Assembly: GCA_026874595.1 (NCBI GenBank)
Contig: CM049317.1
Location: forward strand, 22,580,882-22,644,881
Length of the DNA stretch: 64,000 nucleotides
Direction: 5' to 3'
DNA from: Sipunculus nudus
Taxonomy: Eukaryota; Annelida; Sipuncula; Golfingiida; Sipunculidae
Position 1 is the stretch's first letter, and each line of letters begins with the position of its first letter. The position numbers and the translations under genes are program-made. This document shows positions 33,392 through 62,213 of this stretch, piece after piece. The notes under the pieces were generated by a model that saw only the letters and a program-made list of their open reading frames with translations, ran no database searches and was not told the DNA's origin.

Positions 33392-35540
33392 GAATGCGAG
33401 TAGCCGTGTTAGTCCCTCAGTGTATAGATAACAGGATGAAGACGCTTTAGTGTTGAATAACTGTTTAATTCAACCACGAGCTTTCGAAGATTATAGCTTC
33501 TTCATCAGGCGTCAAGTGGAAAGGTATAGAAACCGGCTGAATTTATATGTTAGATAAACAATTTCTAATGACCATAATGCATGGTATAGTGTGATGGATC
33601 TGTGATTGGCTACTCTTAATATGTATCATGTTGACCCAGGTTCCGAGTGTGTCATTGTTATTTACCCATAATGCTAGGTTATGAGTGTCCGGATTATGTT
33701 GATTTCATGTCCTCTGACACAATAAGGTTTTAAAGTTCATTATGCTCATCGGCTCAATGTTGATGATGATTGACGACTAATGTGGTGGCGATCTGGTTGT
33801 GCAAGTCCATGATTATGAATAGAGATAATCCACATGTAAATGGTGTATTAAATGATATATTAAATAGTCTGTATCAGAAAGTTTACGTATAAGATGATGA
33901 CGTTTGTCGATTACTTGATATTATTATTGTGCGTAAGCCTTTATTATTGTGCGTAAGCCTGAGAGGTGATCTCACAACACGGCGGTATCAGTGGCGGGAA
34001 TGTGCACGTATGCATGAGGAATGACGTCACGTCATTATCAATATGGAGGGGTCGTTCGGTGCTATTAATATTATGGTATGTCTCAATGTCTGTAGTGTGC
34101 CATGAAACCGGCATCGCGATTTAATCCTTTCCTTATGGTGTCAAATTTATCAATCAATTTTAGTTCCCATACCTTTCGTTGTCGTGTGTCTGTATGGTGG
34201 CCCTTTAGAACGCAAATCTGCATGCATGCTGGCGAGTGTTCCTGTTGAGAAAAATGTTCTCCGACCGGTAAGTTAGTGTCAGCGCTTTAATGGACTGTCT
34301 GTGGCCATTTATTCTGAGACTAAGCATTAGGCTGGTTTCGCCTATATAAATAACTCCTGGGCATATTTGACATAGGATGGCATAGACTACACCTTTACCG
34401 GTGCAGTCAAAGTGTCCCTGAGTAGTGTGTTTGGCATCATGGATAATTAGGGTTTCCTTGCGGACTATGAGTGGGCATGTGCGACAGCGCGGTCTTTTAC
34501 ATGGGAATGTACCGTTAGTGTTATCATATCTGAAGCTTTGATTTTGTACTAATTTTTTATGTAGATTATGGGGTTGTTTATAAGAGAGGAGTGGTGTGTC
34601 AGGAAAGAGGGGTTTTAATGTAGGGTCCGATTCTAATAAAGGTTGTAGATCATGGATAATTCTTTTTAGAGGTTTTAGTATACGGGGATGATATGTTGTA
34701 ACTAACGGTGTGCGAGGGTTTTCTATTTTAATTTTTGGAGCGAGTAGAGAGCTGCGTGAAATTTTAGTGGCTTTTCCTATTTGTTTTTCTACTGTTTTCT
34801 GTTTGTACCCCATATTGATAAAAATATTTTGTAGTTTCGCAATGTTTCGATTTCTATCGAATATGTCGGAACATATCCTATTGTATCTTATGGCTTGGCT
34901 GAATATAATGGATTTACCAACATGGGGTGGGTGACAACTAGTAGGATGGATATTATTATACCTGTCGGTGGGTTTGCGGTAAATAGATGTGTGAATGTTG
35001 CAATCTGTTATTTTTACTGTGGTGTCAAGGAAATTAATCTTATCTACGGAGTACTCCATTTGGAATTTTGTGTGGGGGTGAAAATTATTGAAATCGCTAT
35101 AAAATTTTAATAGGTTTTCATGACCATGATGCCATATAAGAAATATATCGTCGATGTAACGTAGGTAGAGTAAATTTAAATGTTTTTGATCAAGAAAATT
35201 TTCTTCCATGGAAATCAGAAATGTGTTTGCATATTGTGGAGCCATGCGTGTACCCATGGCCGTTCCCATCATCTGAAGATAAATCTTATTGTTGAAGCTA
35301 AAATAATTATGAGTGAGAATAAATTCCGCTAGTTTTTTTTACGACTGATGGGGCTGTCGCATTTTCAGTTTGAAATTTTGTAATTTTAAAGATGCGGCAA
35401 GCCCGTCATTATGGAGGATATTGGTGTAAAGGGATTCCACATCAAGAGTTGCTAAGATAGAATGTGGATTTGACGTTAGTCTCTTTCTAAAAAGGATGTG
35501 GTAGGATTATGTCTAGAGAAGAAACGTATTTATTTTTGGC
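33392..35540 (-). mobile_element. Penelope-like retroelement (RT plus GIY-YIG), decayed copy
   Basis: Minus-strand element bounded on its 3' side by (TA)n near 33391 and on its 5' side by LINE sequence near 35540. Reverse-transcriptase motifs are present (DVESLYTNI upstream of 35341, then MGTAMGTRMAP, YIDD), with a C-terminal GIY-YIG endonuclease typical of Penelope-like elements. Downstream (33395-34080) is an untranslated/LTR-like tail with the CGAGCTTTCGAAG...CTTCTTCATCAGG signature and a 20-base direct duplication (33921-33960). It lies inside the first intron of the predicted membrane-protein gene, antisense to it. Confidence 0.85.
34205..35272 (-). pseudogene. Penelope-like reverse transcriptase/GIY-YIG endonuclease ORF fragment
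   Basis: Longest open part of the element, 355 codons. MGTAMGTRMAP (residues 2-12) is RT motif B, YIDD (39-42) is the catalytic motif C, and INFLD (79-83) follows. A Cys cluster (C258, C263, C266) precedes the endonuclease, whose GVVY (294-297), IYIG (308-311), Arg320 and His324 are in place. Coding similarity continues on both sides in broken form. An in-frame TAA at about 35341 interrupts the N-terminal RT, a frameshift near 35490 lies further upstream, and a frameshift near 34275 displaces the last ~60 residues (GEHFSQQEH...) to another frame ending at 34083. The copy should be inactive unless rescued in trans. Confidence 0.85.
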
Positions 35541-57440: not shown

Positions 57441-58930
57441 ATGTTTTCAATGCACTGGAGGTCACCTGGGATGGGGTTTGTTTAACCGTGTCAGGTGTAT
57501 AAACCTTTAGAGTGCAAACATTTATACTGGCGGGGGTGATATGGGGTTAATGGCTCCGACAGATTCTAACAGTAATATTTTCATGCATGTCTTTGTGATG
57601 TATGTGTCGCTTATGTATTTGAGAGTTTTCCTTGGAATAAAAATCGCGTCGACAAGCTTACTGATTTATTCGTGAAGTATTTCCCCGTGTAAACTGAATT
57701 CTTACGTTACCTTTGGTTCGTCTGTCGGCACATTTACGTATACATCTCGAATATATGTTGTTAATATCTTGTGAAGAGTTAGGAAATTTCCTGACGAAAC
57801 TCTCTTACATGTTAAACTAATCTGGGTCACATAAAAAATAAACTAAAGAATATTATTGAACTGTAACGGCTATTTAATTATAATAGAGCTAATGTTCGGT
57901 GTTGGTTGGCGGGTGGCTCCTTATTTGAGGTCATCCGGGATGGGGTTGTTGAAACCATGCAAGGTGTATAGGCATATATAAGCAAAATCACCCTGGCGTA
58001 GGTTTGATGTCTTCGACATTTTTTTATTGTCCCAATTTATACCCGTGTCTCTTTGCATGTTTGTATGATCAAGTTTTGGGTACATAAATGGTACTGAACC
58101 TCGACCCGTGTACCTTTATGGAAGGTCAAGACACGGACCGGGCATGAGCTCATTAAGATCTGGTCATATAAGTTGTATACTGAATGCCATCTAGTTCCTA
58201 TTGAATTATTGTATTAAAAGGTTTGTGAGCTTTCATTCACTGTCACAGTTGATATCTTATGTGACATTTTATAGTAAACTCTTCCAATGCATACTTTAGG
58301 AATTATTAATATTAAAGGATGTGCCCACAAAATGCATATAAATTCGTACATATTTACTTTACAGGGAAATCTAAATAAGATATGCAATATGTGTTTAATT
58401 TTATATGCAATAATCTGATATCGATAAAATGTCTCAGTTTTTCTATAGGGTTTGGTTCTTATCTTTTACCAATGCACTGATATGATATTTTAAATAGAGC
58501 AATTATTCCTGTCTAAAACCCTTTTATCTTCCACTTAGTATGACCATATGAACCCTGTATTAATAACAATGGTGATCAATATCAATACGTTTCGACGTTG
58601 GAGCTGTAAAGGACGCGACCTATGCAACATAGATATACGTTGCCTTCAGTTCCCATTTTTAAACATTGCGGCTAGAAGTGCAGCTAGCATAAAGTTGCAT
58701 TATGGGAATGAACACACGCACTTCGGGATTTCTCAAGATAATTTGGCTTTCTCACAGTTAAATATAAACCGAAAAGATGAATGTAATATAATGTTACGTT
58801 TACTGCTCAGAATGTTCTCCGATCAGGTTTCTAGTACCTACCGGGTACCCTTGACTGTGGTGCATTTGCATCATATTCTGTATTCACTTGTACGGACTTG
58901 TCCAGTCATTGTCGTAGGACTAGAAACTGG
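57441..58930. other. 3' flank of the kinase exon
   Basis: On the minus strand this would be the kinase 3' UTR. The nearest AATAAA is at about 58028-58023, roughly 0.9 kb after the stop. A plus-strand ORF (58548-58934) shows no recognisable domain. Confidence 0.45.
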
Positions 58931-59977
58931 TTAATCATCAGTATATAAACAGCGCCTTCCCGATTGTCTCGTTTCCAAGGTGTGAGTACCACTCTCACTC
59001 TCGCTTCGCTCACGGGAACGAGACCTGGCTTCTATATCATATGACTCGCTCCCGACTTTCTTGCTTTCGCGTGAATTGCAATGCGTTGCCTCGTTTTCCT
59101 CTTCCTCCGCATCTCCTACAAACAGCTGTCTAATATATTTCACCTTCGTTAGCACATCCTGGGCAGACGGTCTATCTTCAGGTTCGAACGAAACCATATC
59201 AGCGACCAGGTCACCAAGCTCCGGCTCATCCCGAAAATACAGTTCGGAGAATTTCTTCTTGTCGAACGATGGACCTACAATTTCATTTATAAACTTGTTG
59301 CCCATTTTGTCTAATCTAGGTTCGAGCATTGACGGATGTCGCCTTGAAACCTTTCGGGTTGCAGCAGCAAAGAAGACCAAACCAAGTGAAAAGATATCAG
59401 CACTAAAACTATAAGGGTTTGGGCCGTCAATTTCTGGTGCCATAAACATTTCGGTTCCACAAAAAGAAAAGAAAGCTTCCTGACCAGGAGGAAGTGCTTT
59501 TGTTAAACAAAAGTCTGCAAGTTTGCAGATCATTCTCTTCCTCCTTGGTGCAGCTAATAGAGCGTTGTCAGGTTTCAGGTCCCTGTGCATGAGTTCCCCT
59601 TCATGGAGAAAGTTTAAGCCGTTTGCCATATCTTCCATGTAACAACATATTTCTTTCAGTGTTGGTTTCTCATTTATCACATGGTCATTCAGGCTCCCCC
59701 CTCCACAGTACTCCATCACAATATATAAACTATCCTTGCTGAGATCCGAAAAGAAATCAAGCACACTGACGAGATTTTTGTGTTTTTTCTTCTCTAGAGC
59801 AAAAAGTAGTTCGTATGCTGCTGAATCCCTTTTCTTAGAAAGAGACCGCATTTCTTTCATAGCGTACTCTTTCCTGTTTTTGGTGACCTTATACACAATG
59901 CCGAACGAACCCTTACTGAGTTTTTGGATGATGTGGTAATCTCGAATCATAAAGCGCTGGAAAAAGGTCAAACTCAT
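58931..59977 (-). CDS. STK35/PDIK1L-like serine/threonine protein kinase, probable 3' coding exon
   Basis: Open frame of 348 codons with a complete protein kinase fold, expected to phosphorylate Ser/Thr on unknown substrates. Residues from the Met at 59977: glycine loop SKGSFG at 21-26 (first Gly replaced by Ser), ATP-anchoring Lys41 (YAMK), catalytic HRDLKPDN at 131-138 (Asp133, Lys135, Asn138), metal-binding Asp155 in DFC rather than DFG, activation segment ending APE at 180-182, and the subdomain XI Arg in EDRPS (about 269). The kinase ends near 284; an acidic stretch and an RSRSRERSESES tail follow. GTEMFMAPE and the overall spacing recall the STK35/PDIK1L family (inferred from memory). 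A TAA stop lies directly upstream of this Met, and the bases coding residues 2-7 form a good acceptor (TTTGACCTTTTTCCAG). Coding may therefore begin at 59956, spliced in phase 0 to the BIR exon at 60341-60504. Catalytic residues look intact, so it is probably active. Confidence 0.9.
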   Translation of the reverse strand: MSLTFFQRFMIRDYHIIQKLSKGSFGIVYKVTKNRKEYAMKEMRSLSKKRDSAAYELLFALEKKKHKNLVSVLDFFSDLSKDSLYIVMEYCGGGSLNDHVINEKPTLKEICCYMEDMANGLNFLHEGELMHRDLKPDNALLAAPRRKRMICKLADFCLTKALPPGQEAFFSFCGTEMFMAPEIDGPNPYSFSADIFSLGLVFFAAATRKVSRRHPSMLEPRLDKMGNKFINEIVGPSFDKKKFSELYFRDEPELGDLVADMVSFEPEDRPSAQDVLTKVKYIRQLFVGDAEEEENEATHCNSRESKKVGSESYDIEARSRSRERSESESGTHTLETRQSGRRCLYTDD

Positions 59978-60340
59978 TTACCCCTTAGCTGTAATTATTC
60001 TTTACTGACTGATCGATCTACTTTTACTTACTGATATACCATCTGAAGATATGTTTTTTTATGACTGATTAAGTGGGTGGTATTTTATAGAGTTCTATAC
60101 TTACCATAAACGTATTACATGTAATTGATCATGGTAAAAATGTGTATGGTCCAGAAAGAAATAACACTCTGATATAATAAATTGATTTGTTTTGTTTAAA
60201 CAGAATACATAACCCTTACTCAATTACATAACCGTTAAAGTTGATATTGGAGGCGAGCTTGAATGATTGTGGATGATTCCATCCGGATATCATATTTTGT
60301 TTTACATAGAATCTATATGGTTTCCTTTTCCTTTACATAC

Positions 60341-60504
60341 CTCATTTTCAGCCTTTGGACTGTTATGTTTTCCTGTCCAATTTTTATCTTTGATGTAAGG
60401 ACAGTTTGGTCTGCGTTTCAGATGTTCTTTCAGGGGATCATCAGCTGGCTCCCACTTATTCAGAGGAAGATCACAAAAGAAGCATTTCACCTTGTCCTCT
60501 GTAC
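60341..60504 (-). CDS. BIR-domain protein exon 2 (zinc-binding half)
   Basis: 164-base exon with acceptor ATCGATAG|GT and consensus donor GAG|GTATGT. It enters in phase 1 and leaves in phase 0. It encodes the BIR core CX2CX16HX6C exactly: Cys71, Cys74, His91 and Cys98 in the joined protein, plus the conserved W81-E-P-x-D-D-P and EH. Compared with XIAP BIR3, the Trp at 310 is kept and Glu314 is Asp, but the positions of Trp317, Gln319 and Trp323 hold Leu, Glu and Arg. The IBM-peptide groove may therefore be altered (family knowledge plus inference). No RING or CARD follows. The next coding sequence on this strand is the kinase, about 385 bases on, with a phase-0 acceptor. Alternatively a short unseen exon or a separate end follows. 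Confidence 0.87.
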
Positions 60505-61135
60505 CTATCGATGCAGTAGAATAAATAGTGTATTATTTAGGGCCATGCTTTTGCGAATTTATATATGTGTCTATAAAATCAATATGTTACGTCTTCCAGA
60601 TTCGGGGATACCTGTAATGGAATCAATATAAGATACGATACAGTATCTCCTGTTCTCCCATTTCTGGTAATAACCATTTCCTGGCGGCCACGCTAACAAA
60701 GTATCACTATGCAATATGTCAATATTCGAATTTGTAAAACTATGCTTTACAATAAAAACAAATGATTCAGATTACATACAACATTCTAAGGTTTGATAAT
60801 TTGATGTTTCCTTAACGTTCCACAACAATTCACCAAAAACTCTTCATCAACACCCTAATCAAGTGACTGCATCCATCCAATCATGCAGCCTTATGAACAA
60901 GACAAGAAGGGGGTATAACTAAGAGATGTGTCTAACATGCTGATTGTAATTTACAATAATTCTACAAAGGTCTTGATAAAAGCTGATTGAATTTTAAGCC
61001 GTATATCCGCTTGTTTTAATACACACAAAAAGTGCGATTGTAACGTATATTTATATCAGGAACAATGTATCTCCACTATCTGTAAATATCTAAAGTTATG
61101 ATTCTCAGTGTATATATATATATATGTTTATATAT

Positions 61136-61166
<31 letters not shown>

Positions 61167-61443
61167 ATAAGAGTAATACACACAGAAATTCAATACCTCA
61201 TAGTGAAGGTGCTCAATCTTTAAGGGGAGCATTAATAATATATCATATATAGCGCAACACAATAGCCACCTGGGCCACAAGCAACTACCTCACCGAACCT
61301 AATAACCTCAGATTATGCCTACCTATTATGGCGAACGTCAGCCGCATATCTGATAAGTTCAGTAAATACCTGAAGAGTGAGAACTGTAGGCAGCTGTACT
61401 CACGAAACAGTTCTGTCGGACAGGAAGTAGAACTAACTGTATA

Positions 61444-61500
<57 letters not shown>

Positions 61501-62023
61501 ATTCTTATCTACATATTCTAAATAAAAGGGGCTATGCAGCACTAGATCCTATTAAAATATGTTAACAATGTGGAGCAATGTATAATATATAATATGTGTG
61601 GAGAACAGATCCGACTGTGGCTCCTTCAATTTCGTGGACATATTAACCATTAATATATGCACTATATTACCCGAATTATCTCAGGGATATAAAAGACAAT
61701 TTATTCCTAGTATTTTCTGATGATGGAACTAAACAAAGGCTGCAATATCACTATTTGAAAGGACATGGTGCACTCTGTGGTACGTACTGGAAAACATGTC
61801 CACGGTGTCTCCGTGGCACCAAAATTCCCACCCAAGGATAAACTCTCACTGTTGAAATTCCCGATACCATGCAGCGTCGATATCATTGACAGGTACACAG
61901 GTATACGTTATGATATAGATATAATTCAATGTGCATGAATACGTGAAAAACAAACAAATAAAGGGGAAGGCAACACAGAGGTGAGGGTATCTATTTACAT
62001 ACATGAGCAAATCTGGAGAGTAC

Positions 62024-62213
62024 CTGTATAGTAAAAACCCGCCATTGCCATATCCTCAGGCGGTATCAGATGTTCGTGAGGCCAGCCGGAGAACGATCTA
62101 ACTCGTGCACTTTCTAAAGTCATTGCGGGGTTACATGGTTCTACTGGTCCAGTAGGAGTTTCTGGATTTTGTGGCGTATCCGTAGGCCTAATTTTCTTCC
62201 ACAATGCTTTCAT
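62024..62213 (-). CDS. BIR-domain protein exon 1 (N-terminal half of the BIR)
   Basis: The ATG at 62213-62211 opens 63 codons plus one base; an in-frame TGA lies 18 bases upstream, so this is the first possible Met of the frame. Residues 1-33 are a Pro/Thr-rich leader. From about 34 the reading shows the first half of a baculoviral IAP repeat: ESARVRSFSGWP (conserved Arg and WP) and MAMAGFYYT (the AGFYYTG signature). The exon ends at 62024 on a donor reading ACAG|GTACTC, phase 1. Joining to 60504 restores YTGTEDKVKCFFC with no gap, which is strong evidence for the intron. BIR domains bind zinc and contact caspases or IBM-type peptides. The first coding exon may be preceded by untranslated exons I cannot see. 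Confidence 0.85.

Follow-up and report, generated by a model that had tools for sequence, protein, structure and literature searches.

A candidate family of genes joining a BIR domain to a Ser/Thr kinase in Sipunculus nudus

The window analysed here is a stretch of 64,000 nucleotides of the Sipunculus nudus genome (G000:C12:22580882-22644881), and its minus strand carries three exons (62213-62024, 60504-60341 and 59956-58931) that together encode 459 residues. All of the exon borders are consensus-like and their phases are compatible with one another. The coordinates, phases and lengths proposed for this gene in an earlier sequence-only reading are borne out, and Pfam recognizes both a BIR and a protein kinase domain in the 459-residue product of the three-exon join. 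We infer from the sequence that the three exons are spliced into one mRNA that gives rise to one protein. Rfam yielded no matches within the window. The locus, referred to below as copy A, is organized as follows.

62024..62213, minus strand: exon 1, 190 nt, with the start Met, a basic leader and the N-terminal part of the BIR; donor ACAG|gtactc, phase 1
60505..62023, minus strand: intron 1, 1519 bases, within the BIR
60341..60504, minus strand: exon 2, 164 nt, with the C-terminal part of the BIR, including all four zinc ligands, and then a linker
59957..60340, minus strand: intron 2, 384 bases, separating BIR and kinase
58931..59956, minus strand: exon 3, 1026 nt including the stop, with the whole kinase domain and a charged tail; acceptor ttccag|CGC, phase 0
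59147..59938, minus strand: kinase domain, residues 125-388, assigned by Pfam and by its catalytic residues
59948..59950, minus strand: Met codon, a possible alternative start for a kinase-only product, with T at -3; common to all six BIR-linked copies described below

The BIR domain of copy A occupies residues 37-101 (PF00653; 84.9 bits, cut-off 22.9, E 5.5e-24), and that of copy B, one of the paralogous loci described below, scores 84.6 bits. Exon 2 of copy A is bordered by the acceptor atag|GTACAG and the donor GAG|gtatgt, the latter in phase 0, and its junction with exon 1 falls within the Gly of FYYT-G, upstream of the zinc ligands; an intron 1 donor is found at the matching place (after FYYT or FYST) in the other five BIR-linked copies (B-F). 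It had been proposed that this junction restores both the BIR as a whole and its zinc-ligand pattern, CX2CX16HX6C; the former holds, but the latter does not, since all four ligands (CFFC...H...C) lie in exon 2. By alignment the ligands are kept in both A and B, and in the decayed copy E the first Cys is replaced by Y. The closest solved structures are the BIRs of NAIP (BIRC1), XIAP and cIAP (BIRC2/3), with survivin (1m4m) a weaker match at 51.8 bits. Alignment with solved BIRs places the W, D and E residues of copy A (WEPADDPLKEH) at or near positions that we take to belong to the IAP-binding-motif groove, and what is presumably the last Trp of that groove is Arg. In A and B, the only models matched by Pfam at a threshold of E 0.001 are those for BIR and kinase, with no RING, UBA, CARD/death or UBC partner. 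The lack of these partners bars only the canonical multi-domain IAP classes, because single-BIR IAPs exist, as recorded in the covered part of an oyster survey (PMC8917759).

The kinase assignment is also clear by Pfam, with PF00069 matching residues 125-388 of copy A at 161.3 bits (cut-off 31.7, E 3.8e-47), the related model PF07714 matching the same residues, and the copy B kinase scoring 171 bits. Copy A has a full kinase core with HRDLKPDN and APE motifs, and the VAIK Lys, the helix-C Glu, HRD, the Asn and the Asp of DFG are kept in both A and B; the DFG position itself reads DFC in copy A and DFG in copy B. The best solved-structure matches to the copy A kinase, ULK1 (95.6 bits) and NEK1 (87.3 bits), do not settle its subfamily, for which the sequence-only reading had put forward a putative STK35/PDIK1L likeness, and no model of NCBIfam, a prokaryote-oriented library, exceeds its cut-off for this kinase, which hence receives no name from that source. 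The full core is common to copy A and to Ser/Thr kinases of the ULK, NEK and PAK types, from which copy A differs by its N-terminal BIR. As to a viral origin of the kinase, a scan of IMG/VR with the kinase exon returned three pattern matches and no relatives, which is a weak test in that a single-protein query reveals close relatives only.

When the whole genome (1.43 Gb in 153 contigs) was searched with the kinase exon, 36 rows were obtained, 14 of which we group into eight family loci: six on C12 (A, in the window, together with B-E and G), one on C6 (F) and one on C2 (H). More distant kinases, with E values of 2.3e-19 at best, make up the other 22 rows, and the same eight loci rank top when G and H are used as queries. 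The kinases of B-F are 37-63% identical to that of A. When fetched flanks were searched by tblastn with copy A, six of the eight loci (A-F) proved to have BIR exon 1, followed by BIR exon 2, ahead of the kinase and on its strand. A profile built from A-E recovers these exons again, with F at E 8.4e-11; this profile is independent only for the F match and for the misses. The tblastn query was copy A alone. BIR exons were found upstream of none of four distant kinases tested from among the 22 rows, with 8-9 kb of flank searched for each and a best profile E of 0.06. Chance adjacency of BIR and kinase was considered and rejected, the layout being present at six of eight family loci against none of the four other kinases tested from the 22 other rows; recurrence at six loci goes well beyond what chance would give. 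Whole-genome BIR searches scored the best 150 of 532 and the best 150 of 520 candidates, and further BIR exons of this kind may exist.

Among the six BIR-linked copies, A and B have uninterrupted reading frames, of 459 and 472 amino acids respectively. Indels affect exon 2 and the kinase of copy C, D and F contain stops, and E has frameshifts and one stop. Given that four of the six copies are decayed and that no donor is recognized in F, the family may be fading. Downstream of the kinase in copy C (L053), two segments, 4179-4093 (E 0.007) and 3695-3606 (E 6.9e-5), weakly resemble the C-terminal tail of the family, which would fit a duplication of the tail in this copy.

The boundary between the BIR and kinase exons is of particular relevance to how these loci are read. 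A phase-0 donor follows BIR exon 2 in five of the six copies, with GTATGT in four and GCAAGT in one. The sites read GAG|gtatgt for both A and B, GAG|gcaagt for C, GAA|gtatgt for D and AAG|gtatgt for E, and each interrupts the BIR frame in phase 0; no donor was recognized after BIR exon 2 of copy F. A phase-0 acceptor precedes the kinase in all six, either 0 or 6 bases ahead of a conserved Met. The intervening intron 2 measures 384, 1980, 1217, 362 and 344 bases in A-E respectively, and because the introns of A and B have only simple repeats in common (blastn, E 1e-3), the splice signals at the boundary stand out as conserved. If read past the donor, the BIR frame stops after 12, 67, 8, 18 and 3 codons in A-E, at unrelated places, so that there is no conserved alternative stop for the BIR. 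Intron 2 of copy A contains neither AATAAA nor ATTAAA; beyond the stop codon of the kinase, signals of this kind are first met at 58399 and 58028. Poly(A)-like signals do occur in intron 1 of copy A, at 61705 and 61020, and we count these against a fusion.

The possible starts of translation differ in their contexts. In all five copies for which a leader ATG was chosen in exon 1 (A-E, scored by eye, with those of B-E chosen by analogy and none chosen in F), the base at -3 is A, and the kinase Met (59950 in A) has a purine at -3 in just one of the six BIR-linked copies, also scored by eye; these contexts favour exon 1 as the probable start. The sequence-only reading had noted that a Met at 59977 lies directly after a stop and inside the acceptor tract, and that is indeed its position, but it had overlooked the second Met at 59950, located 6 nt into exon 3 (RF-MIRDY), from which a kinase-only product would more plausibly start. 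Because Met 59950 is conserved in all six copies, a kinase-only product that begins there is possible, although its start context is poor.

The two family loci in which the kinase is not accompanied by a BIR are informative as to the history of the kinase exon. In G and H this exon also lies behind a phase-0 acceptor (CAG|GGC and CAG|GGT), and there is no Met between the acceptor and the kinase core. The H frame has no Met at all upstream of the core, that of G has a Met farther upstream, within the acceptor tract, and a Met at the place equivalent to 59950 is absent in both. No BIR is found in about 15 kb upstream of G (L056, plus strand), apart from the opposite-strand exons of copy E itself (L056, L055), or in about 13 kb upstream of H (L057; best E 0.08, 7.2 bits), although a BIR may lie beyond longer introns, and no upstream coding exons were identified for G or H. 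Since the G and H kinase exons sit behind a phase-0 acceptor without a Met, the kinase exon of this family seems ancestrally to have had a coding exon upstream. The kinase exon of G (L056 6214-7044, plus strand) is open and lies about 3.6 kb from the decayed copy E, in a head-to-head orientation. Locus H (L057 8173-9138) has HRN instead of HRD in its catalytic loop and may encode a pseudokinase.

Comparison of the two intact copies shows that purifying selection holds the BIR and the kinase to a similar degree. Between A and B, pN/pS is 0.27 for the BIR (68 codons, bootstrap 0.14-0.45; dS 0.95) and 0.28 for the kinase (268 codons, bootstrap 0.22-0.35; dS 1.41), and the leader and tail give values of 0.50 and 0.59 respectively. 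In the linker, where pN/pS is 0.97, only ten codons are aligned and constraint is not measurable; over the linker and the first part of the kinase exon next to it, A and B differ by nine codons, in frame. Pairwise identities of BIR and kinase across the copies are in weak positive agreement (r 0.64, with 74 of 720 Mantel permutations as high; Spearman 0.48, P 0.07), and this co-divergence result was left out of the support for a fusion and counted against it.

The proposal that BIR and kinase are fused is thus supported by the six loci at which two BIR exons precede a kinase exon, by the retention of splice sites and phase at the boundary, by similar selection on the two domains, and by the phase-0 acceptors without a Met in G and H. 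We consider it very probable that copy A belongs, as an intact member, to a small set of paralogous genes in which BIR and kinase are fused, and that the fusion arose by exon shuffling at phase-0 introns. In such a history, which we read from the exon layout, a two-exon BIR module ending in a phase-0 intron would have been joined to a single-exon Ser/Thr kinase, the kinase exon having already lain behind a phase-0 acceptor before the BIR module arrived; the fused gene would then have been duplicated, with several of the copies decaying.

A similar picture could be produced by two adjacent genes, one encoding a single BIR and the other a kinase starting from Met 59950, that were duplicated together as a block. 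The Met is present in six of six BIR-linked copies and missing from that place in G and H, as a kinase-only start would be, and the length of intron 2 is variable (344-1980 bases in A-E). We nevertheless regard this arrangement as improbable, in that the phase-0 donor (five of six) and acceptor (six of six) are kept even though the introns of A and B cannot be aligned, the BIR lacks a conserved stop in A-E and intron 2 of copy A a poly(A) signal, five of the six kinase Met codons are without a purine at -3, and the gaps in A, D and E amount to just 384, 362 and 344 bases. A fused gene could also use alternative starts or alternative splicing to produce a kinase-only or a BIR-only isoform in addition, a reading that partly coincides with the explanation that we prefer and is in our estimate rather unlikely: the internal Met is conserved, and alternative splicing alters the domain content of oyster IAPs according to the covered part of the survey (PMC8917759), but no alternative stop is conserved past exon 2 and the context of the Met is weak.

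It could also be argued that the layout is ancestral and that copy A is a non-functional remnant, decaying in the manner of C-F, a reading to which the broken state of four of the six copies and the change from DFG to DFC in copy A lend some weight. This is hard to square with reading frames that are open throughout in A and B, with pN/pS values near 0.28 in both domains, and with the retention of the zinc ligands and main catalytic residues in these two copies, and we give it little credence.

If copy A does encode a fused BIR-kinase protein, the most likely model is one of docking, in which the BIR would pick partners and the kinase would act on them. The BIR would dock the protein on a partner, either through an IAP-binding-motif peptide (as of a caspase or a Smac-like protein) or on an immune-complex scaffold, and the kinase, occupying the place that a RING ubiquitin ligase holds in ordinary IAPs, would phosphorylate the bound partner or its neighbours. 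BIRs and kinases are known from other animals to meet as separate proteins in complexes, in the pairs survivin-Aurora B, XIAP-TAB1/TAK1 and cIAP-RIPK1, and survivin is a BIR protein that helps to place the Ser/Thr kinase Aurora B on its target. Survivin and Aurora B are separate proteins within the chromosomal passenger complex, whereas here one gene appears to code for both a BIR and a kinase. More tentatively, and with rather less than even confidence, we suggest that these genes represent a class of BIR-guided kinases, in which the ubiquitin-ligase arm of an IAP has been replaced by a kinase arm through phase-0 exon shuffling and has been kept by selection in this lineage, such that IAP partners (caspases, Smac-like proteins and immune adaptors) would be phosphorylated and not ubiquitinated.

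The IAPs of bivalve molluscs provide a useful comparison, since they are described as massively expanded, with shuffling of BIR, RING, UBA and death domains, in the covered parts of two surveys (PMC7831173, PMC8917759). The oyster survey lists 12 kinds of non-BIR domain in 14 architectures, and the part covered names no kinase domain among them (PMC8917759); the word 'kinase' does not occur in the main text of the clam IAP paper (PMC7831173), nor is BIR or IAP mentioned in the main text of an oyster kinome paper (PMC4883820). The covered part of an Aplysia survey reports 22 BIR proteins, 11 of which have a RING, and three of these 11 also have death-like domains (PMC9334734). The sequence-only reading had placed a BIR-kinase pairing outside the canonical architectures, in agreement with these parts of the clam, oyster and Aplysia surveys, which name no BIR-kinase; the pairing of an IAP-type BIR with a kinase is thus not met in the survey parts covered. 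No BIR-kinase protein was seen among the titles and abstract beginnings listed from the open-licence literature searched, and unannotated or undiscussed BIR-kinase entries may exist in protein databases. As far as the covered text on clam IAP genes goes, copy A is like them in having a single BIR on two exons that ends in a phase-0 intron, and differs from that module in that the kinase exon is here the last exon. In known IAPs more generally a RING, UBA, death domain or UBC stands where the last exon of copy A carries its kinase.

A BIR fused to a kinase, if confirmed, would tie IAP recognition directly to phosphorylation within one chain, and would allow the contribution made by a BIR on its own, as a targeting module, to be tested in a natural case. 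It would also be a clear case of phase-0 exon shuffling yielding a new signalling enzyme.

The genome contains BIR sequences of a different organization as well. Among the matches listed, BIR frames occur in near-identical arrays at dozens of places on C1-C17 (for example at C1:77667932, C4:59682205 and C7:25258772; L003-L008). Many of the arrays have, among these matches, further BIRs about 1,005 and about 2,456 bases after the first, repeatedly with the same bit scores, and in some cases the same contig has an additional BIR at a distance of about 117-120 kb. By eye, L005 holds several consecutive BIR frames, one of them with a RING-like end. These arrays on C1-C17 look like a large, recently spread and possibly virus-like element with several IAP genes. 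Elsewhere in the window, a 377-codon frame on the minus strand (34205-35338) encodes what we take, by eye, to be a reverse transcriptase (YIDD) and, after it, a GIY-YIG-like end, presumably as in Penelope-like elements.
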